Assembly: GCF_028607085.1 (NCBI RefSeq)
Contig: NZ_CP117411.1
Span: 1,674,001 to 1,738,000, forward strand
Length of the DNA stretch: 64,000 nt
Direction: 5' to 3'
Source of the DNA: Sphingomonas naphthae
Lineage (GTDB): Bacteria > Pseudomonadota > Alphaproteobacteria > Sphingomonadales > Sphingomonadaceae
The position numbers and the translations under genes are program-made. Position 1 is the first letter of the stretch; each line of letters begins with the position of its first letter. Shown here in pieces: positions 9,905 through 46,411 of the stretch. The notes under the pieces are model-generated. The model saw only the letters and a program-made list of their open reading frames with translations. It searched no databases and was not told the DNA's origin.

Positions 9905-10852
9905 ATGGCCCTGAAGATCGCGGTTCAGATGGATCCGCTCGAGACGATCAACATCGCGGGCGATTCCACCTTCGCGATCATGCTCGCCGCGCAGGCGCGC
10001 GGGCACCAGCTGTGGCATTATGCGGCGGGCGACCTCACCTATCGCGACGGGCGACTGAAGGCGCCGGCGCGCGCGGTGACGGTGCGGCGGATCGCGGGCG
10101 ACCATGTCGATTTCGGGGGGTGGGAAACGCTCGATCTGGGCGCCGACGTGGATGTCGTGCTGATGCGGCAGGATCCGCCGTTCGACCTGGCCTATATCAC
10201 CGCGACCCACCTGCTGGAGCGCATCCAGCACGAGACTTTGGTGGTGAACGACCCCGCCGCCGTGCGCAACGCGCCCGAGAAACTGTTCGTGCTGGATTAC
10301 GCGCAGTTCATGCCGCCGACGATCATCACCCGCCATCTGGAGGAAACCCGCGCCTTCCATGCCGAGCATGGCGAGGTGGTGGTGAAGCCGCTGTACGGCA
10401 ATGCGGGATCGGCGGTGTTCCATGTCGGGCGGGCGGACGCCAATCTGGCGGCGCTGACCGAATTGTTCGGCCAGGTGTGGCGCGAACCCTTCATGGTGCA
10501 GGCGTTCCTGCCCGACGTGTCGAAGGGCGACAAGCGCATCGTGCTGATCGACGGCAAGCCGGCCGGCGCGATCAACCGCCTGCCCAAGGCCGGCGAAATC
10601 CGATCCAACCTGGCCGCCGGCGGCCGCGCCGACGCCACCGACCTGACCCCGCGCGAGCAGGAGATCTGCGCGGCTCTTGGGCCCGAGCTGGCCAAGCGCG
10701 GGCTGCTGTTCGTGGGGATCGACGTGATCGCGGGATATCTGACCGAAATCAACGTGACCTCGCCGACGGGGATCGTGGCGATCGACAAGTTCAACGGGAC
10801 GGATACCGCCGGGCTGATCGTGGAGACGATCGAGGCGAAGGCGCGGGGGTGA
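9905..10852 (+). CDS. gshB: Glutathione synthetase
   Basis: GshB joins gamma-glutamylcysteine and glycine with ATP in the cytoplasm, the second step of glutathione synthesis. The 315-residue sequence matches throughout: MALKIAVQMDPLETINIAGD, LMRQDPPFDLAYITATHLLE, VNDPAAVRNAPEKLF, then the ATP-grasp domain with VVKPLYGNAGSAVF, IVLIDGKPAGAINRLP and the C-terminal TEINVTSPTG. A ribosome site (CGGGAG) lies 6 nt before the ATG. It follows rsmI-yraN, with a palindromic repeat between. Confidence 0.97.
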   Translation: MALKIAVQMDPLETINIAGDSTFAIMLAAQARGHQLWHYAAGDLTYRDGRLKAPARAVTVRRIAGDHVDFGGWETLDLGADVDVVLMRQDPPFDLAYITATHLLERIQHETLVVNDPAAVRNAPEKLFVLDYAQFMPPTIITRHLEETRAFHAEHGEVVVKPLYGNAGSAVFHVGRADANLAALTELFGQVWREPFMVQAFLPDVSKGDKRIVLIDGKPAGAINRLPKAGEIRSNLAAGGRADATDLTPREQEICAALGPELAKRGLLFVGIDVIAGYLTEINVTSPTGIVAIDKFNGTDTAGLIVETIEAKARG

Positions 10853-10909
10853 CTTGGCTCAGCCGCCCCCAATCCCGCCCATTGAAATCATCTAGGATGG
10901 GATAGCCTC

Positions 10910-10945
10910 TTCAATCCCTTCCGCATAGAACATATAGTGAACATG
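10910..10945 (+). promoter_or_regulatory. LexA (SOS) box overlapping the imuA promoter
   Basis: The alphaproteobacterial LexA motif GAAC-N7-GAAC is present exactly: GAAC at 10928-10931 and at 10939-10942 with ATATAGT between. The spacer supplies a -10 element (TATAGT 10933-10938); a weak -35 (TTCAAT 10910-10915) lies 17 bp upstream. Transcription would start at about 10945, which is the GTG start of imuA, so LexA would occlude the -10 and the message may be leaderless. Confidence 0.85.
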
Positions 10946-11706
10946 TGGATGATTCGGCGCTCTCCTTCGCTGCCCTCAAGCGGCGCTTCGCCCGTAATGG
11001 GGAGGAACAGGCGCGGGCCGATCGCTTCGCGCTGGGGGATGCGGCGATCGATCGGGCGCTGGGCGGCGGGCTGGCGCGCGGGCGGCTGCACGAATTGGTG
11101 CCCGCCGCCGAGGACGACGGGCCGAGCGCGATGGGGTTCGCGATCATGCTGGCGTTGCGCGCGACCCCGGCCGCTCTGTTCTGGATCGGCGAGGACAAGG
11201 CCGGCCGGCCCCGGCTCCACCCGCCCGGCCTCGCCGAACTGGGCGCGGACCCCGGCCGCTTCCTCTTCGCCGATGCCGCCGACGAGGCCGGGCTGCTGCG
11301 CGCCGCCGCCGACGCGGTACGATCGGGCGCGGTCGGCGCGGTGCTGCTGGCGCCGGCGGGCAAGGCCAAGCTCTACGATCTCACCGCCAGCCGCCGGCTG
11401 AGTCTCGCCGCCGAGGGATCGGGCGTCACCATCCTGCTGCTGCGCGTGGCGGGGGACGACGGGCCGTCCGCCGCCGCGACGCGCTGGCGGATCGCCGCCG
11501 CCCCCTCCCGTCCGCTGGAGGCCGGCGCCCCCGGCCAGCCGACCTTCACCGCCGAACTGCTCCGCCATCGCGGCGGCATCACCCTGCCCGCCTGGCGCCT
11601 CGAATGGAACCGCGACGATGCCCTCTTCCGCCTCGCCCCGCCGCTATCTGGCGATCCATCTGCCCTTCCTGGCGATGCACGCCTGGGAGGAGGCTGGGCT
11701 GGGTGA
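10945..11706 (+). CDS. imuA: ImuA, SOS mutagenesis RecA-like accessory protein
   Basis: ImuA is a small RecA/SulA-like protein that acts with ImuB and DnaE2 in damage-induced mutagenic synthesis. Recognisable parts are RFALGDAAIDRALGGGLARG and LHELVP, the degenerate RecA-like core, and the C-terminal GGITLPAWRLEWN. Translation probably starts at the GTG at 10945; no ribosome site precedes it and it coincides with the predicted transcription start. It is first gene of a LexA-controlled imuA-imuB-dnaE2 operon. Its reading frame extends 89 bp into imuB and its stop codon lies inside a short palindromic repeat, which suggests the C-terminus was reshaped by that insertion. Confidence 0.9.
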   Translation: MDDSALSFAALKRRFARNGEEQARADRFALGDAAIDRALGGGLARGRLHELVPAAEDDGPSAMGFAIMLALRATPAALFWIGEDKAGRPRLHPPGLAELGADPGRFLFADAADEAGLLRAAADAVRSGAVGAVLLAPAGKAKLYDLTASRRLSLAAEGSGVTILLLRVAGDDGPSAAATRWRIAAAPSRPLEAGAPGQPTFTAELLRHRGGITLPAWRLEWNRDDALFRLAPPLSGDPSALPGDARLGGGWAG

Positions 11707-13147
11707 GAACCGCTCCCCTCAAGGGGAGGGAATCATTACGGTCTTCACCGAAAAACACGCCAACGCGATGCGCCTCACCGCGCTCAGCCCGCGAGCGCAG
11801 GCGATCGGGCTCACCGTCGGCCTCACCCTCGCCGACGCCCGCGCGCGCGAACCGGGCATCGCCGCCGTCGATCGCGATCATGCCGCCGAGGCGCGGCTGC
11901 TCGGGCGGCTGCTGGCGGGGCTGGTGCGCTACACGCCGATGGCGGCCGCCGAGCCGCCCGACGGGCTGATGCTCGACATCACCGGCTGCACCCATTTCTA
12001 TCGCGGCGAGATGGGCCTGCGCGCCGATGTCGATCGGCGCCTCGCCGCCGCGCGGGTGATCGCGCGCACCGCGATCGGGCACACGCCGCAGGCCGCCCGC
12101 GCGCTCGCCCGCTTCGGCGGACGCAATCTGATGGCGCTGCCCGTCGCCGCACTGGAGGCCCCGCCCGAGGTGGAACTGGCGCTGCGCCGCGCCGGCCTCA
12201 AGACGATCGCCGATCTCGCCGGGCGTCCGCGTGGGCCGCTGGCGGCGCGCTTCGGCGATCTGCCGCTGCGCCTCGCCCGGCTGCTCGGCGAGGAGGACAA
12301 GCGCATCACGCCGCACCGTGTGCCGCCCCCCGTCGCCGCCGTCCGCCGCTTCGCCGAGCCGGTCGCCAGGACCGAGCATGCGCTGGCGGTGCTGGCCGAA
12401 CTCGTCGCCGAGGCGGGCGCCGAACTGGAGCGGCGCGGGCAAGGCGGGCGGCGGTTCGAGGCGCGCTTCTTCCGCAGCGACGGGGCCATCGCCGCGCTGG
12501 CGGTCGAGACCGGCCGCCCGGCGCGCGACCCCGCGATCCTCGACCGGCTGTTCCGCGAACGGCTGGAGGCGCTCTCCGACCCGCTCGATCCGGGCTTCGG
12601 CTATGATCTGATCCGCCTCGACGTGCCGCGCGCCGAGCCGATGGGCGTCACCCAGCCTGGACTCGACGCGCCGGTAGAGGAGGCGAAGGAGGATATGGTC
12701 GCGCTGGTCGATCGACTTTCGGCGCGGATGGGCCGGCGGCGGCTGTCGCGCGCGCAACCCCATGCCAGCCACATCCCCGAACGCGCCGTCGCGCCCCTGC
12801 CGCCCGAGGCCGCGCCCGCCGCCTGGGGGGCAACCGAGCCGGGCGAGCCCCCGCTGCGCCCCCTGCTCCTCTTCGATCCGCCCCAGCCGGTCGAGGTGGT
12901 CGCCGGCACGCCCGATGGCCCGCCGAAGCGCTTCACCTGGCGCCGCACCGCCTATCAGGTCGCGACGGCCGAGGGGCCGGAGCGGATCGCTCCCGAATGG
13001 TGGCGGCGCCTCACCAGCACGGGCCGCACGCGCGATTATTACCGGATCGAGGATGGCGCTGGCCACCGCTTCTGGCTGTTCCGATCGGGCCTGTTCGGCG
13101 ACGAGGGCGATCCCCCGCGCTGGTACATCCACGGCCGCTTCGCGTGA
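11618..13147 (+). CDS. imuB: ImuB, catalytically inactive Y-family polymerase-like protein
   Basis: ImuB links DnaE2 and ImuA to the beta clamp; its Y-family fold lacks the normal acidic catalytic residues. The start is MPSSASPRRYLAIHLPFLAM; the degenerate palm segment reads GLMLDITGCTHFYRGE, helix-hairpin-helix regions follow (residues about 170-250), and the C-terminal region includes LLLFDPPQPVEVVAG and WYIHGRFA. Residues about 29-41 (GENRSPQGEGIIT) are encoded by a palindromic repeat inserted in frame (11700-11743), in the loop between the first strand and TVFTEKHANAMRL. The start overlaps imuA by 89 bp; the stop overlaps the dnaE2 GTG. Confidence 0.93.
   Translation: MPSSASPRRYLAIHLPFLAMHAWEEAGLGENRSPQGEGIITVFTEKHANAMRLTALSPRAQAIGLTVGLTLADARAREPGIAAVDRDHAAEARLLGRLLAGLVRYTPMAAAEPPDGLMLDITGCTHFYRGEMGLRADVDRRLAAARVIARTAIGHTPQAARALARFGGRNLMALPVAALEAPPEVELALRRAGLKTIADLAGRPRGPLAARFGDLPLRLARLLGEEDKRITPHRVPPPVAAVRRFAEPVARTEHALAVLAELVAEAGAELERRGQGGRRFEARFFRSDGAIAALAVETGRPARDPAILDRLFRERLEALSDPLDPGFGYDLIRLDVPRAEPMGVTQPGLDAPVEEAKEDMVALVDRLSARMGRRRLSRAQPHASHIPERAVAPLPPEAAPAAWGATEPGEPPLRPLLLFDPPQPVEVVAGTPDGPPKRFTWRRTAYQVATAEGPERIAPEWWRRLTSTGRTRDYYRIEDGAGHRFWLFRSGLFGDEGDPPRWYIHGRFA
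11700..11743. repeat. Palindromic repeat inserted in the imuA/imuB overlap
   Basis: This is similar over about 45 bp to the intergenic element at 9800-9843. It starts GGGTGAG, has a hairpin CTCCCCT (11713-11719) / AGGGGAG (11722-11728) and ends with AATCATTA. In the imuA frame it gives the stop codon TGA (11704-11706); in the imuB frame it is translated as about 13 extra residues. Confidence 0.65.
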
Positions 13148-16100
13148 GCGAGGCGGCGGCGCCCGGCCCGGCCTATGCCGAACTGGCATGCGCCTCGAAC
13201 TTCTCCTTTTTGCGCGGGGCGAGCCATGGGTCGGACCTCGTTGGCCAGGCCATCAAGCTTGGCCACAAGGGTCTGGGGATCGCCGATCGCAATACGGTGG
13301 CCGGGGTGGTGCGCGCGTGGAAGGCGCTGAAGGAAATAGGCGAGAGGGCCGAGGTGGCGGGATCGCCCTTCGCCGATTTCAAGCTGGCGACCGGCGCGCG
13401 GCTGGTGTTCGCGGACGGGACGCCGGACGTGATCGCCTACCCCGCGACCCGCCATGGCTGGGGGCGGCTGTGCCGGTTGCTGACCGAGGGGAACATGCGC
13501 GCGCAGAAGGGCAGTTGTATCCTCAGCATCGACGATCTGATCGCCTTTGCCGACGATCTGCTGCTGATCGTGCTGCCGACGAGCAGCGCCGATCCGGCCG
13601 AGCAGGTGCCGCATGGCAAGCCGATCGCGCTGCCGGGGGATGCGGTGGAGGCCATCGCCACCAACGTCCTGCCCTTCCCGTCGCCTCATAAGACCCCGTT
13701 CGTCCCGAGCGTAGTCGAGGGATGGGCCCCAGGCGGTGCGCCCTGCCTCACGTCCCTCGACTACGCTCGGGACGAACGGATGGGGGATAGTCCACCGAAG
13801 ATCGCCACCATCCACCCCCTGCCCACCCCCGTCCCCCGCCGCGACCTGATCGCCACGCTCGCCCGGCTGAAGGCCATCGCCCCCGATCGCGTCTGGCTGG
13901 GGGTGGCGATGCCGCGCAAGGGGCCGGACCGCCGCCGCCTCGCCCGCTTCGCGCGGATCGCGACGGCCGCTGGCGTGCCGCCCATCGCGATCAACGATGT
14001 CCTCTACGCCACGCCCGAGGAACGCCCGCTTCAGGACGTGCTGACCTGCATCCGCGAGGGGACAACCATCCAGTCCGCCGGCCTCCGGCTGGAGGCCAAT
14101 GCCGAGCGCCACCTGAAAGACGCCACGGAAATGGCCCGCCTGTTCGGCGACGCGCCCGAAGCCATCGCCGAAACCACCCGGCTGCTCGCCCGGATCGATT
14201 TCGACCTGCGCCAGATATCCTACGAATATCCGCATGAGCCCGTGCCCGAGGGTTGGCATCCGCAGAAATGGCTCCAGCATCTCGTGATCGCCGCCGCCCG
14301 CCGCAAATGGCCCGACGGCACCAGCGCCAAGGTCCGCAAATTGCTGCGCGAGGAGTTTCGGCTGATCCGGGTCGAGGGCTATGCTTATTACTTCCTCACC
14401 GTCCACGACGTGGTGAAGTTTGCCCGCGATCAGACGCCCCCGATCCTGTGTCAGGGGCGCGGGTCGGCCGCCAATTCGATGGTCTGCTATCTGCTGGGCG
14501 TCACCTCGGTCGATCCCGCCGCGCACGACCTGCTCTTCTCGCGCTTCCTGTCCACCGACCGCAAGGAGCCGCCCGACATCGATGTCGATTTCGAGCATGA
14601 GCGGCGCGAGGAGGTGATGCAATATATCTACCGCCGCTATGGCCGTCATCGCGCGGGCATCGTCTCGACCGTGATCCACTTCCGTTCGCGCTCCGCCGTG
14701 CGCGAAGTGGGCAAGGCGCTGGGGCTGACCGAGGACGTCACCACCCGCCTCACCAGCACCGTCTGGGGCAGCTATTCGACGAAGATGGAGGAAAGCCGCT
14801 TCAAGGAAACCGGCTTCGATCTCGACAATCCCGAAATCGCGCGCCTCAACCATTTCGTCGCGCAGCTACTGACGGGGCCGGATGCCGATACCGACGAGCC
14901 CGTCGCTTTCCCGCGCCACCTGTCACAGCATGTCGGCGGCTTCGTGCTGACCGAGGGGCGGCTGGACGAGACCGTGCCGCTTCACCATGCGGCGATGGAC
15001 GACCGCACCTTCATCGAATGGGACAAGGACGATATCGATGCGCTGAAGCTGATGAAGGTGGATGTGCTGGCGCTGGGGATGCTGACGTGCATCCGCAAGG
15101 CGTTCGTTCTGATGCGCGAGTCAGGCGGGCCGGAGTATCTGCTGGAAACGGTGCCTTCCGAGCAGCCCGACGTCTACGACATGCTCTGCAAGGGCGACAG
15201 CATCGGCGTGTTCCAGGTGGAGAGCCGGGCGCAGATGAACATGCTGCCGCGCCTCAAGCCGCGCGTGCTGTACGATCTGGTGGTGCAGGTCGCGATCGTG
15301 CGGCCGGGGCCGATCCAGGGCGACATGGTCCATCCTTATCTGCGGCGGCGCGAGGGGACCGAGCCGACCGAATATCCCTCTCCCGGCCCACCGCACCCGC
15401 CGAACGAACTGGAGGAGTTGCTGGGCAACACCTTCGGCGTGCCGCTGTTTCAGGAACAGGCCATGAAGCTGGCGATCGTCGCCGCCGGCTTTTCGGGGGC
15501 GGATGCAAATCGCTTCCGGCGGGCGATGGCGACGTTCCGTAACGTCGGCACCATGCCGCAGTTCGAGACGAAGCTGGTCGAGGGGATGGTCGGGCGGGGC
15601 TATGCCCGCGATTTCGCCGAGCGGTGCTATCAGCAGATCAAGGGCTTCGGCAGCTACGGTTTTCCCGAGAGCCATGCCCAGTCGTTCGCGCGGCTGGTCT
15701 ATGTGTCGTCGCTGCTCAAATGCCGCCACCCGGCCGCTTTCTGCGCGGCGATCCTCAATTCGCAGCCGATGGGTTTCTATGCACCGGCGCAGCTCGTGCG
15801 TGATGCGATCGAGCATGGGGTGGAGGTGCGGCGGATCGATGTGCTGGCGAGCGGGTGGGACAATGGGCTGGAGCCCGCCGATCCGCTGCGGGGCGATCCG
15901 CCGCGCGAAGGGCTGGAGTCGGGGTGGGACGGGCCGGCGGTGCGGCTGGGGTTTCGGCAGATCGATGGATTCAGGGAGGATTGGGCGAAGGTGATCGGGG
16001 AGATCGTCAGCGGCGCCCCAGCCCCAAATCGTCACCCCAGCGAAAGCTGGGGTCTCCCACCACAGGCGCTACGCCCAGTCGGGAAAGACCCCAGCTTTCG

Positions 16101-16884
16101 CTGGGGTGACGAGAAAGGGGGCTGGGGTGATGATAGAAAAGGGGGTGACACCCTCGTCCAGCGCCTCGCCCATGCCCTCCCCGCCCGCGCGCTGCGCCTC
16201 CTCGCCGATGCGGATGCCTTCCGCTCGATCGGCCTCGATCGGCGGCAGGCGTTGTGGGAGGTGCGGCGCCAGCCCGATACGCCGCTGCCGCTGTTCGCCG
16301 CCGCCGAGGCGCGCGAGCTGGGGGACGAGGCGGATGCGCGCCTGCCCGCGATGCCGCTCTCCGAACAGGTCGCGGCCGATTATCAGATGACGCGCATGTC
16401 GCTGAAGGAGCATCCGATGACCTTCCTGCGCGATCTCTTCCGATCCGAAGGGGTGCGCAGCTGCCGCGAGATCGGCACCGTCAAGGACGGGCGGCGCGCG
16501 CGGGTGGCCGGGGTGGTGCTGGTCCGCCAGCGGCCGGGCAAGGGCAATGCCATCTTCGTCACGCTGGAGGACGAGACGGGCGTGACCAACCTGGTGATGT
16601 GGGCGCGCGTGTTCGAACAATTCCGCCGCGACGTGATGGCCTCCCGCCTGATCCTGGCCGAAGGGGTCGTGCAGAACAGCAAGGAGGGGATCGTTCATCT
16701 GATGGTCGATCGGGTCGAGGATCGCACCGCCGAGCTGGGCCGCTTGTCGAGCGATCACCCCACCCGCGTCACGCTCAGCCGCGCCGACGAGTTCGAGCAT
16801 CCCCAGCATCCGCGCTACAAGGTCCATCGCGGCAGCCACCCGCGCGAGGTACGCATCCTGCCGCCCTCCCGCGATTTCCATTGA
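13144..16884 (+). CDS. dnaE2: Error-prone DNA polymerase III alpha subunit DnaE2 (ImuC), with two repeat insertions
   Basis: DnaE2 is the SOS-induced translesion polymerase of the ImuA-ImuB-DnaE2 mutasome. Order: degenerate PHP domain (YAELACASNFSFLRGASH), polymerase core with catalytic PDIDVDF (D478, D480, D482), helix-hairpin-helix domain and OB fold near the C-terminus. It begins with GTG overlapping the imuB stop. At 1246 residues it is clearly longer than the roughly 1,050-1,150 usual for the family. Two long palindromic repeats, 13696-13779 (residues 185-212) and 16031-16110 (residues 963-989), are translated in frame, plus low-complexity flanks. All core motifs remain intact, so activity is plausible but untested. 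Confidence 0.94.
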   Translation: MSEAAAPGPAYAELACASNFSFLRGASHGSDLVGQAIKLGHKGLGIADRNTVAGVVRAWKALKEIGERAEVAGSPFADFKLATGARLVFADGTPDVIAYPATRHGWGRLCRLLTEGNMRAQKGSCILSIDDLIAFADDLLLIVLPTSSADPAEQVPHGKPIALPGDAVEAIATNVLPFPSPHKTPFVPSVVEGWAPGGAPCLTSLDYARDERMGDSPPKIATIHPLPTPVPRRDLIATLARLKAIAPDRVWLGVAMPRKGPDRRRLARFARIATAAGVPPIAINDVLYATPEERPLQDVLTCIREGTTIQSAGLRLEANAERHLKDATEMARLFGDAPEAIAETTRLLARIDFDLRQISYEYPHEPVPEGWHPQKWLQHLVIAAARRKWPDGTSAKVRKLLREEFRLIRVEGYAYYFLTVHDVVKFARDQTPPILCQGRGSAANSMVCYLLGVTSVDPAAHDLLFSRFLSTDRKEPPDIDVDFEHERREEVMQYIYRRYGRHRAGIVSTVIHFRSRSAVREVGKALGLTEDVTTRLTSTVWGSYSTKMEESRFKETGFDLDNPEIARLNHFVAQLLTGPDADTDEPVAFPRHLSQHVGGFVLTEGRLDETVPLHHAAMDDRTFIEWDKDDIDALKLMKVDVLALGMLTCIRKAFVLMRESGGPEYLLETVPSEQPDVYDMLCKGDSIGVFQVESRAQMNMLPRLKPRVLYDLVVQVAIVRPGPIQGDMVHPYLRRREGTEPTEYPSPGPPHPPNELEELLGNTFGVPLFQEQAMKLAIVAAGFSGADANRFRRAMATFRNVGTMPQFETKLVEGMVGRGYARDFAERCYQQIKGFGSYGFPESHAQSFARLVYVSSLLKCRHPAAFCAAILNSQPMGFYAPAQLVRDAIEHGVEVRRIDVLASGWDNGLEPADPLRGDPPREGLESGWDGPAVRLGFRQIDGFREDWAKVIGEIVSGAPAPNRHPSESWGLPPQALRPVGKDPSFRWGDEKGGWGDDRKGGDTLVQRLAHALPARALRLLADADAFRSIGLDRRQALWEVRRQPDTPLPLFAAAEARELGDEADARLPAMPLSEQVAADYQMTRMSLKEHPMTFLRDLFRSEGVRSCREIGTVKDGRRARVAGVVLVRQRPGKGNAIFVTLEDETGVTNLVMWARVFEQFRRDVMASRLILAEGVVQNSKEGIVHLMVDRVEDRTAELGRLSSDHPTRVTLSRADEFEHPQHPRYKVHRGSHPREVRILPPSRDFH
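13696..13779. repeat. Palindromic element (CGTTCGTCCCGAGC family) inside dnaE2
   Basis: Perfect 27-bp inverted arms at 13696-13722 and 13753-13779 surround a 30-bp loop. The 84 bp equal exactly 28 codons and are read as PFVPSVVEGWAPGG followed by APCLTSLDYARDER. The same family occurs between genes at 46276-46358, which shows that this is a mobile or dispersed repeat rather than native dnaE2 sequence. Confidence 0.92.
16031..16110. repeat. Palindromic element (GTCACCCCAGCGAAAGC family) inside dnaE2
   Basis: Perfect 25-bp inverted arms at 16031-16055 and 16086-16110 are each self-complementary hairpins (CCCCAGC-gaaa-GCTGGGG). They are translated as RHPSESWGLP and DPSFRWGD within dnaE2. The same element lies between genes at 25111-25196. 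Partial copies of the right arm (GGGGGCTGGGGTGA, GGGGGTGAC) follow at 16117-16149. Confidence 0.92.
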
Positions 16885-16886
16885 AA

Positions 16887-16925
16887 AGGCCCGCCCGCAC
16901 CATCGTGCGAGCGGGCCTCGAAAAA
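16887..16925. terminator. Bidirectional terminator between dnaE2 and a small membrane-protein gene
   Basis: AGGCCCGC (16887-16894) pairs with GCGGGCCT (16911-16918), and CGCAC/GTGCG extends the stem inside. The plus strand continues with TCGAAAAA and the minus strand with CTTTTC, so the structure can stop transcripts from the convergent genes on both sides. Confidence 0.7.
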
Positions 16926-16943
16926 CACCTAAATGGCCGCCGG

Positions 16944-17120
16944 TCAGCCGGTCGCGGTGCGACGTCCCTTGCCCGGACGCGGCTCTTCGGGCGCGGGCTT
17001 GGGCTCCTCGTGCGGCACCGCGACCATCAGGTTGAACAGGCCATAGAGAAACATCAGTCCAAGGCCGACCGCGAACACCGAAAAGATGATCGAGAAAATC
17101 CGCATCGCTTCCGATACCAT
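16944..17120 (-). CDS. Small single-pass membrane protein
   Basis: This encodes 58 residues from the ATG at 17120, chosen because AAGGAA lies 8 nt upstream; a longer frame exists to 17174. One hydrophobic helix (residues about 7-33, RIFSIIFSVFAVGLGLMFLY) is followed by a Pro/Glu-rich and then basic tail (EEPRPGKGRR). Function unknown. It converges on dnaE2 across a shared terminator. Confidence 0.65.
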   Translation of the reverse strand: MVSEAMRIFSIIFSVFAVGLGLMFLYGLFNLMVAVPHEEPKPAPEEPRPGKGRRTATG

Positions 17121-17342
17121 CGGGTTATTCCTTCGCATGTCCTGGCCGTAGCCATGTGACCCCTGTGGAAGCATTAACGGCGCACGCGTGTGTTCGATCC
17201 GTAATGGATGATTTCGGGATGTTTCTTATCCCGTTGATGGCACGTCTCATGGTTAATCCCGCGTGCGGCCGATGCCCCTTGGCCGCCGCCCGCGCATGCC
17301 ATAGGGCGCGATGCGATGCCGCCCCGCCCCCGCCCCGTCCGC

Positions 17343-18152
17343 CTATCGCCGACGCGCCAGTTGCGCCGCGAGGCTGCGCGCGGCCAGCACATAGGCCGGG
17401 CCGCCGCATACGGTCCACGCCTCGGGAATGCGCAGGCGCGGGATGGCGGCGAGGATCGGGTGGTGGAGCATTTCCGTCCCCTGATCGGTCACGCGATCGG
17501 TGGCGCTCTCGACGATCAGGAAATCGGGGCGGGCGGCGATCATCTCTTCCAGCGAGAGCTGCGACAGCGGTGGCTTGCCGAGCCTTGCCGCCAGATTGAC
17601 GAGGCCGACGCGCGCCATCAGATCATCGACCAGGGTGCCCGTGCCCGTCATGAAGCCGCGCCGCTGGTAATAAGCCGCGACCCGCCCGCGACCGGGCCGG
17701 GGCAGCGCGGCGAGTTCACGGTCCATCCGCGCGACCAGCGCCGCGCCGCGCGCCGGATGGCCGACCGCCGCCGCCACCGTGCGGACCTGCTCGACGATCG
17801 CGGCATAGCTTTCGGCGGGCGGCAGCGGCAGCACGGGCACGCGCGGATCGGCGGTCGCGGTCAGCCCCCACGTCTTGCCGAGGATCAGATCGGGATCGAG
17901 CGCCAGCCGCTCCTCGGCGGATTTGCGCATGATGTGGTGCCCGCGCGCCTGCGCGGCGGCGGCCGACATGTCGGGATCGGCGGCGTTCGAGGTGAGGCCG
18001 GCGATCTGCGCGGGATCGGCCAGCGCGAGCAGATATTGATCGGCGCACAGATTGACCGAAACGATGCGTTTCGGCGGCGCGGGCGCGGCGCCGAGCAGGG
18101 CGAGGGCCGCGAGGGCGATCGGGAGCGGGGGACGCGGCACGACGCGATCCAT
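17343..18152 (-). CDS. BtuF/FecB-like substrate-binding protein of an ABC transporter
   Basis: The 269-residue precursor has a signal peptide (MDRVVPRPPLPIALAALALL ending around GAAPA) followed by the periplasmic helical-backbone binding fold: KRIVSVNLCADQYLLALADP, ILGKTWG and PDFLIVESATD. The family carries vitamin B12 or ferric siderophores to a cognate permease. It is divergent from the permease and ATPase genes at 18326-20082, with which it probably forms one BtuFCD-like system. Substrate cannot be fixed from sequence. The start at MDRVV was chosen for the signal peptide; the upstream part of the frame is read through a palindromic repeat. Confidence 0.82.
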   Translation of the reverse strand: MDRVVPRPPLPIALAALALLGAAPAPPKRIVSVNLCADQYLLALADPAQIAGLTSNAADPDMSAAAAQARGHHIMRKSAEERLALDPDLILGKTWGLTATADPRVPVLPLPPAESYAAIVEQVRTVAAAVGHPARGAALVARMDRELAALPRPGRGRVAAYYQRRGFMTGTGTLVDDLMARVGLVNLAARLGKPPLSQLSLEEMIAARPDFLIVESATDRVTDQGTEMLHHPILAAIPRLRIPEAWTVCGGPAYVLAARSLAAQLARRR

Positions 18153-18190
18153 AAAGGGGGCGAGCGGTTTTGCCAGCCTCCCTCCATCTT

Positions 18191-18297
18191 CGTCACCCCG
18201 GACTTGTTCCGGGGTCCACGGCACCCCGATCGCGGCGCCGAATCACAGCCGATATCGCCTGCGGCCCGGTGGACCCCGGAACAGGTCCGGGGTGACG
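18191..18297. repeat. Palindromic element (GTCACCCCGGAC family) filling the divergent btuF/btuC gap
   Basis: Inverted arms of 28 bp at 18191-18218 and 18270-18297 match at 27 positions; each arm is a hairpin around CCCCGGA/TCCGGGG. A second member is at 55589-55696. The element occupies most of the 173-bp gap between the two divergent transporter genes, so their promoters must lie in the ~40 bp on the left, the ~30 bp on the right, or in the repeat itself. Confidence 0.9.
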
Positions 18298-18325
18298 GCC
18301 GGGGGTATGGCATGGCTATCCGCTC

Positions 18326-19312
18326 TTGACCCGCCCCGCCCTCCTCGCCCTCCTCACCGGGCTCGCCCTCCTCACCGCCATCGCCTCGCTCGGCCTCGGC
18401 GCGGTGCCGATCTCGCCCGCGCGCATCTGGGCGGCGTTCGCGGGCCATGGCGACCGGATCGCCAGCGCCATCCTGTTCGACCTGCGCATCCCCCGCACCC
18501 TGCTCGGCCTGCTCGTCGGCGCGATGCTCGGGCTCGCCGGGGCGGCGTTGCAGGGGTATCTGCGCAACCCGCTGGCCGAGCCGGCGGTGCTGGGCGCCTC
18601 CAACGCCGCCGCGCTGGGCGCCGTGGGTGCGCTGTATTTCGGGCTGGCGGAGATCAACACGCTCCTGTTGCCGGCCCTGGCCATCGTCGCCGGGCTGCTG
18701 GCGCTGGCGTTGCTGTTCCTGCTCGCCGGTCGATCGGAAAGTCCGCTCGGCCTGATTCTCGCCGGCATCGCCGTCTCGACCTTGGCGGGCGCCGGCATCA
18801 GCCTCGCCCTCAACCTGTCGCCCAATCCGTTCGCGGCGATGGAGATCATGAGCTGGCTGATGGGGTCGATCGAGAATCGCGCCTATAGCCATGTCTGGAT
18901 CGCCTTGCCCTGCATCCTTGTCGGCGGCGGGCTGCTGCTGTTCGACGGCCGCGCGCTGGACGCGCTGACCCTGGGCGAGGACGCCGCGCAGGCGCTGGGG
19001 GCCGATCTGCGCGCGGTGCGGCTGCGGATGCTGCTGGGGGTCGCGATCGGCGTCGGCGGGGCGGTGGCGGTATCGGGGGCGATCGGCTTCGTCGGGCTGA
19101 TCGTGCCGCATCTGGTGCGCCCGCTCACCGATCGCAGCCCTTCGGCCATCCTCCTCCCCTCCGCGCTGGCCGGCGCCGCGCTGCTGACGGCGGCCGACAT
19201 CGGCGTGCGGCTGATGCCGACCAGCGCCGAACTCAAGCTGGGCGTCGTCACCGCCTTCCTCGGCGTGCCGGTGTTCCTGGCGCACCTGACGCGGGCGCGG
19301 CGCTTATGGTGA
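18326..19312 (+). CDS. FecCD/BtuC-type ABC transporter permease
   Basis: The 328-residue protein has about ten hydrophobic segments and the FecCD family signatures RIPRTLLGLLVGAMLGLAGA, LRNPLAEPAVLGAS and GAIGFVGLIVPHLVRP (the region that contacts the ATPase). It transports cobalamin, heme or ferric siderophore across the inner membrane with the BtuF-like protein and the ATPase that follows. The start appears to be TTG at 18326, since in-frame ATG codons upstream are lacking. The stop overlaps the ATPase start by 7 bp. Confidence 0.92.
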   Translation: MTRPALLALLTGLALLTAIASLGLGAVPISPARIWAAFAGHGDRIASAILFDLRIPRTLLGLLVGAMLGLAGAALQGYLRNPLAEPAVLGASNAAALGAVGALYFGLAEINTLLLPALAIVAGLLALALLFLLAGRSESPLGLILAGIAVSTLAGAGISLALNLSPNPFAAMEIMSWLMGSIENRAYSHVWIALPCILVGGGLLLFDGRALDALTLGEDAAQALGADLRAVRLRMLLGVAIGVGGAVAVSGAIGFVGLIVPHLVRPLTDRSPSAILLPSALAGAALLTAADIGVRLMPTSAELKLGVVTAFLGVPVFLAHLTRARRLW

Positions 19313-25055: not shown

Positions 25056-25110
25056 GGCGTCGGAATGAGCGACGGAGGTGTGGGTTCCCCTCCTCCCATC
25101 CCACTCAACC

Positions 25111-25196
25111 GTCACCCCAGCAAAAGCTGGGGTCTCCCGACGCGGCCACAACGGTTGCCCCAAGCCGCAGGAGGCCCCAGCTTTCGCTGGGGCGAC
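25111..25196. repeat. Palindromic element (GTCACCCCAGCGAAAGC family), intergenic copy
   Basis: Arms at 25111-25135 and 25172-25196, imperfect inverted repeats, are each a hairpin CCCCAGC-nnaa-GCTGGGG. It lies between the secA stop and the start of the secreted hypothetical gene. It is the intergenic relative of the copy inside dnaE2 at 16031-16110. Confidence 0.9.
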
Positions 25197-25220
25197 GTAT
25201 TTCTATCGGGCGTGTTTACC

Positions 25221-46253: not shown

Positions 46254-46275
46254 CAGACCGAGCGCCAGTTCGACA

Positions 46276-46358
46276 CCGTTCGTCCCGAGCGCAGTCGAGG
46301 GACGTTCCCCAAACGACACCGCGTGCCTCCGTGCCTCGACTTCGCTCGACACGAACGG
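46276..46358. repeat. Palindromic element (CGTTCGTCCCGAGC family), intergenic copy
   Basis: Arms at 46276-46302 and 46332-46358 are imperfect 27-bp inverted repeats. The left arm differs from the dnaE2 copy (13696-13722) at one position. It sits in the gap between the araC-type gene and the convergent ABM-domain gene. Confidence 0.9.
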
Positions 46359-46411
46359 TTGAACTTTCTGGCAAGAAACCGGGCCTGGGGTGCTGATCGC
46401 GGCGTGAGCCG

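Follow-up and report, generated by a model that had tools for sequence, protein, structure and literature searches.

How a perfect palindrome comes to be translated inside the gene of an error-prone DNA polymerase, and why it should sit in this gene in particular, are the questions raised by dnaE2 in the 64,000-nucleotide stretch of the Sphingomonas naphthae genome analysed here (the window). The gene lies in an operon with imuA and imuB, and the features needed below are as follows.

10945..11706, + strand: imuA, operon partner (ImuA_translesion, E 3e-9, below cut-off)
11618..13147, + strand: imuB, operon partner, 509 aa (tblastn to the upstream genes of related dnaE2 loci)
13144..16884, + strand: dnaE2 (imuC), error-prone polymerase, 1246 aa; its GTG start overlaps the imuB stop
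13588..13845, + strand: length-variable PHP-domain loop, residues 149-234 of this DnaE2; recurrent insertion site in relatives, with NVLPF upstream of the REPIN
13696..13779, no strand assigned: REP dimer (REPIN) of family A, in frame in dnaE2, encoding PFVPSVVEGWAPGGAPCLTSLDYARDER (residues 185-212)
13696..13722, + strand: left REP unit, 27 nt, itself an imperfect palindrome
13753..13779, - strand: right REP unit, an exact inverted copy of the left one
16029..16112, no strand assigned: second REP dimer, CGTC-1 type, of a family unrelated to A, in frame in dnaE2 (residues 962-990)
46275..46359, no strand assigned: the window's other family-A REP dimer, intergenic; its right arm has diverged

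The palindrome at 13696-13779 is a copy of a high-copy REP dimer

Re-deriving arms and coordinates gave the element that the earlier note had described: 84 bp, or 28 codons, with perfectly complementary 27-bp arms around a 30-bp loop, encoding residues 185-212. The intergenic relative claimed at 46276-46358 is also present, at 46275-46359, with 30-nt arms that are 87% complementary. The family-A arm has four matches in the window vs none in 100 dinucleotide shuffles, and 161 matches within 3 mismatches in the 4.31-Mb genome, where a reversed-pattern control gave 0. Folded alone, the 30-nt arm forms a stem around an inner stem-loop (-9.4 kcal/mol). A census of the sequence stretches around these matches, in which diverged copies can be missed, counted about 106 elements, including 77 dimers, nearly all head to head and with a modal span of 82-83 bp; the dnaE2 copy is most similar to one at 3530381, with 90% identity across the complete dimer, spacer included. 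The idea that a dispersed repeat had entered a coding sequence in frame is thus borne out.

Most copies are intergenic, in keeping with the mainly extragenic distribution of REPs, and six occupy recognisable genes without breaking the frame: mtaB, a 2-oxoacid dehydrogenase E2 gene (between the lipoyl and catalytic parts), coaBC (between its two domains), hrpB, cbiB and dnaE2. Third-position GC and curated models served to decide which copies are coding, because long open frames over copies are too common in this GC-rich genome (90/133 elements). Of 67 short head-to-head dimers, 64 have an open forward frame 1 and 61 an open frame 3; frame 2 is open in 15.

Family A has the features of a REPIN: a short imperfect palindromic unit (20-40 nt), head-to-head units separated by a spacer of about the same length, and many dispersed copies. 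It is a candidate member of the GTAG or CGTC super-family, whose units carry the tag, unpaired, at one of their ends: the family-A unit is CGTTCGTCCCGAGCGNAGTCGAGGGA, CGTC is legible solely at the inner end, and in some copies (GAGGGACG), and the tag boundary is blurred. We found no family-A copies or palindromes within 1.5 kb of the genome's single Y1_Tnp (RAYT-type) gene, and a linked RAYT was rejected as the mover of family A. A RAYT flanked by the same REP is an optional feature of REPINs, and CGTC REPs have been reported without one. Across 10500-17500 of the window, Rfam gave no match.

Whether residues 185-212 could be native to the protein was answered by its relatives. The four nearest DnaE2 proteins (about 66-69% identical, none congeneric) all lack the family-A insert and have other sequence at this site; native conserved sequence was therefore rejected. 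One more DnaE2 (L147) has a degraded REP of family-A type at the same site, which we regard as an independent insertion given its absence from the four nearest relatives. The S. naphthae genome also holds a second DnaE2-like gene at 2.744 Mb (G000:C1:2744487-2747651; L033, L035, L036; open frame of 1106 aa), whose protein has nothing alignable with either insert region of DnaE2. Altogether, the element at 13696-13779 is a REP dimer (REPIN) of a non-autonomous, high-copy family and has entered dnaE2 without shifting the frame.

A second, unrelated dimer and the loops that hold both

dnaE2 contains a second 84-bp palindrome, missed in the earlier note, at 16029-16112. It also has perfect 27-bp arms, and its unit, CGTC-ACCCCAGC-GAAA-GCTGGGGT, consists of the CGTC tag, an 8-bp stem and a 4-nt GAAA loop in a head-to-head dimer, as in CGTC-1 elements; the arm has 43 matches genome-wide. 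Another dimer of this type lies in the window at 25110-25197 (arms 25110-25134 and 25173-25197), and ORF translations at about 17900-18330 (TPDLFRGP...RWTPEQVRGD) look like a further palindromic repeat family.

An AF2 model of residues 1-460, for which E. coli Pol III alpha and further DNA polymerases are PDB matches, shows a confident PHP domain in which residues 157-220 fall below pLDDT 50; in a model of residues 800-1246, the same holds for residues 967-997. Both inserts are thus predicted to lie in disordered segments, which supports the earlier suggestion that added loops may be tolerated.

Two insertions in one gene, in a genome with another DnaE2-like gene, could point to a pseudogene in decay, no longer under selection against insertions. 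We consider this extremely improbable, as the frame is open over 1246 codons, the product scores 1328.7 bits against the curated NCBIfam error-prone DNA polymerase model (cut-off 939), third-position GC is high on either side of the insertions, and both inserts are in frame and in loops.

Very probably, then, a selfish REPIN has inserted in dnaE2 and survives because the loops tolerate in-frame additions. A family-A REPIN would have entered the gene with its 84 bp keeping the reading frame, helped towards in-frame survival by two of its three frames being usually open, and the encoded peptide would extend a surface loop of the PHP domain that was already disordered. The second REP family would have followed the same course in the C-terminal loop, and the mover expected for family A would be a RAYT-type HUH transposase. 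The insert would be kept because of the preserved frame, the two usually open frames and the disordered loop, and it is probably close to neutral for the enzyme.

The inserts might instead change DnaE2 function or expression, through an mRNA hairpin or extra loop residues, and be selected as modulators of mutagenesis. The predicted RNA hairpins are very stable (-70.4 and -68.2 kcal/mol), insertion recurs in a mutagenesis gene, and mutator effects were speculated on by Di Nocera et al. (PMC3733652); since families, lengths and peptides at the sites vary, most DnaE2 genes are without inserts and the insert segments are predicted to be disordered, we regard such a role as very unlikely.

Recurrent insertion in DnaE2 relatives

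The comparison set comprised 170 DnaE2 genes (163 unique), mostly from Sphingomonadales with some other alphaproteobacteria. Palindromes scoring 14 or more numbered 25 in the 163 genes, of which some with scores close to 14 may be due to chance (as L196 and L208 appear to be); 14 of the 25 fall in the PHP loop (one inter-core gap, residues 148-235 of our DnaE2) and nine towards the C terminus, between its residues 914 and 1004. Several families are represented: CGTC-1 type (L062, L073, L115, L155), an HPGLVPGS type (L080), a CCCTCGCCCCCTTTAGGGGGAGAGGG repeat (L058), CGCTCGCARAGGCGC repeats (L100, L144) and CCGCTCATGCCGAGCTTGTCGAGG (L104). In G030, G065, G074, G103, G109 and G113, pattern searches showed that the respective repeat is dispersed in the genome. 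On the tree, parsimony gives minima of 12 changes for the PHP-loop site, a count that includes a palindrome just upstream of the loop (L210), and 8 for the C-terminal site, or at least about 20 independent changes together. Unrelated REPs have thus been inserted repeatedly into the same two DnaE2 regions.

In control gene sets, palindromes were found in 15/90 of the DnaE2 family set and 3/70 replicative DnaE genes (Fisher p=0.02), the DnaE sample having deliberately included alignments broken near residue 335; UvrA (3/30) was not clearly lower than DnaE2 and RpoB gave 0/30, both being sets of best-scoring loci that may favour uninterrupted genes. The REP-like palindromes of replicative DnaE (L366, L368, L372) all lie between residues 336 and 442, and that of L372 is of family A, as in the window (PFVPSEVEG). 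Tolerance alone may not explain the excess of DnaE2 over DnaE.

Alternatively, REPs might land preferentially in dnaE2 or the imu cassette, owing to a target-site, strand or expression-linked bias that goes beyond tolerance. Several observations fit such a bias. dnaE2 holds two of the approximately seven recognised in-gene insertions of this genome, from two unrelated families, and the 5' flanks are G-poor in both. G077 has three genome-wide matches to its CGTC-1 pattern, two of them forming its dnaE2 dimer, and in G103 the same 133-bp element occurs in both dnaE2 regions with one more nearby. Palindromes also occur in two ImuB genes, at comparable positions near the N terminus, about 30 residues in (L257:3703-3821 and L146:668-797).

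A short conserved motif also borders the first site. N-V-[VIL]-[PRA]-[FL] occurs in 29/64 long PHP loops, against a mean of 0.2 and a maximum of 3 in shuffles, a comparison that serves as description and no blind test, the pattern having been picked after viewing the loops. Our DnaE2 has its copy, NVLPF, beside the first insertion site, and in several genomes CGTC units begin exactly after the codons CCYTTY of NV[VI]PF: CGTC or CGTC-like sequence starts directly after the motif in L155, L097, L117, L113 and L107. Another type of PHP loop carries AHRKPVDY...HLRLVPPP.

Each of these patterns has to be set against survival after insertion. The same clustering would be expected if copies survived selectively in loops, some of the motif-adjacent copies in those five genes may share one old insertion, and UvrA and DnaE are hit too. 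Copies in genes may, in addition, outlast intergenic ones, since the gene would not survive most deletions and those out of frame would be selected against. We therefore think a landing preference unlikely, and likewise doubt that DnaE2 (perhaps with ImuB) is a true REP hot spot in alphaproteobacteria, with unrelated families inserting beside the PHP-loop motif; if it were, selfish repeats would repeatedly remodel the mutagenesis machinery. The clustering is probably explained by selection against disruptive insertions and against out-of-frame deletions.

Relation to known repeats and meaning

The kind of element described here is already known. Di Nocera, De Gregorio and Rocco (PMC3733652) described REPs within DnaE2 and further repair genes in 2013 and also suggested mutator effects; the present elements resemble their GTAG/CGTC-tagged in-gene REPs in forming head-to-head dimers, in encoding 20-30 residues, in occurring in DnaE2 and repair genes, and in belonging mostly to alphaproteobacterial CGTC families. 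According to that study, other genes sharing a functional category have their REPs at differing positions, recB being the sole case of a common site, whereas here two regions are common to many DnaE2 genes. REPINs (PMC3116915) likewise pair two inverted REP units with a spacer and are high-copy, dispersed and mostly intergenic; as differences, no RAYT was found beside a family-A copy, and the dnaE2 copy is intragenic.

The likeness to Rickettsia palindromic elements (RPEs) drawn in the earlier note holds for the mode of insertion, as these older analogues are palindromes that have become translated, in-frame parts of unrelated genes. RPEs are described as about 150 bp long with about half of their copies in genes (PMC10969869), whereas family A measures 84 bp here and has only about 6 of 106 elements in recognised genes; REP dimer, or REPIN, is the better name. 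The recurrence at two DnaE2 regions and the motif beside the first site were not found in the literature compared; they may be new, or may be published elsewhere.

These genes show selfish hairpin repeats turning into protein sequence. With more than 20 genes, several repeat families and empty relatives, they form a natural series for asking whether repair polymerases are targets of REPs or merely tolerant hosts, a question left open in 2013.
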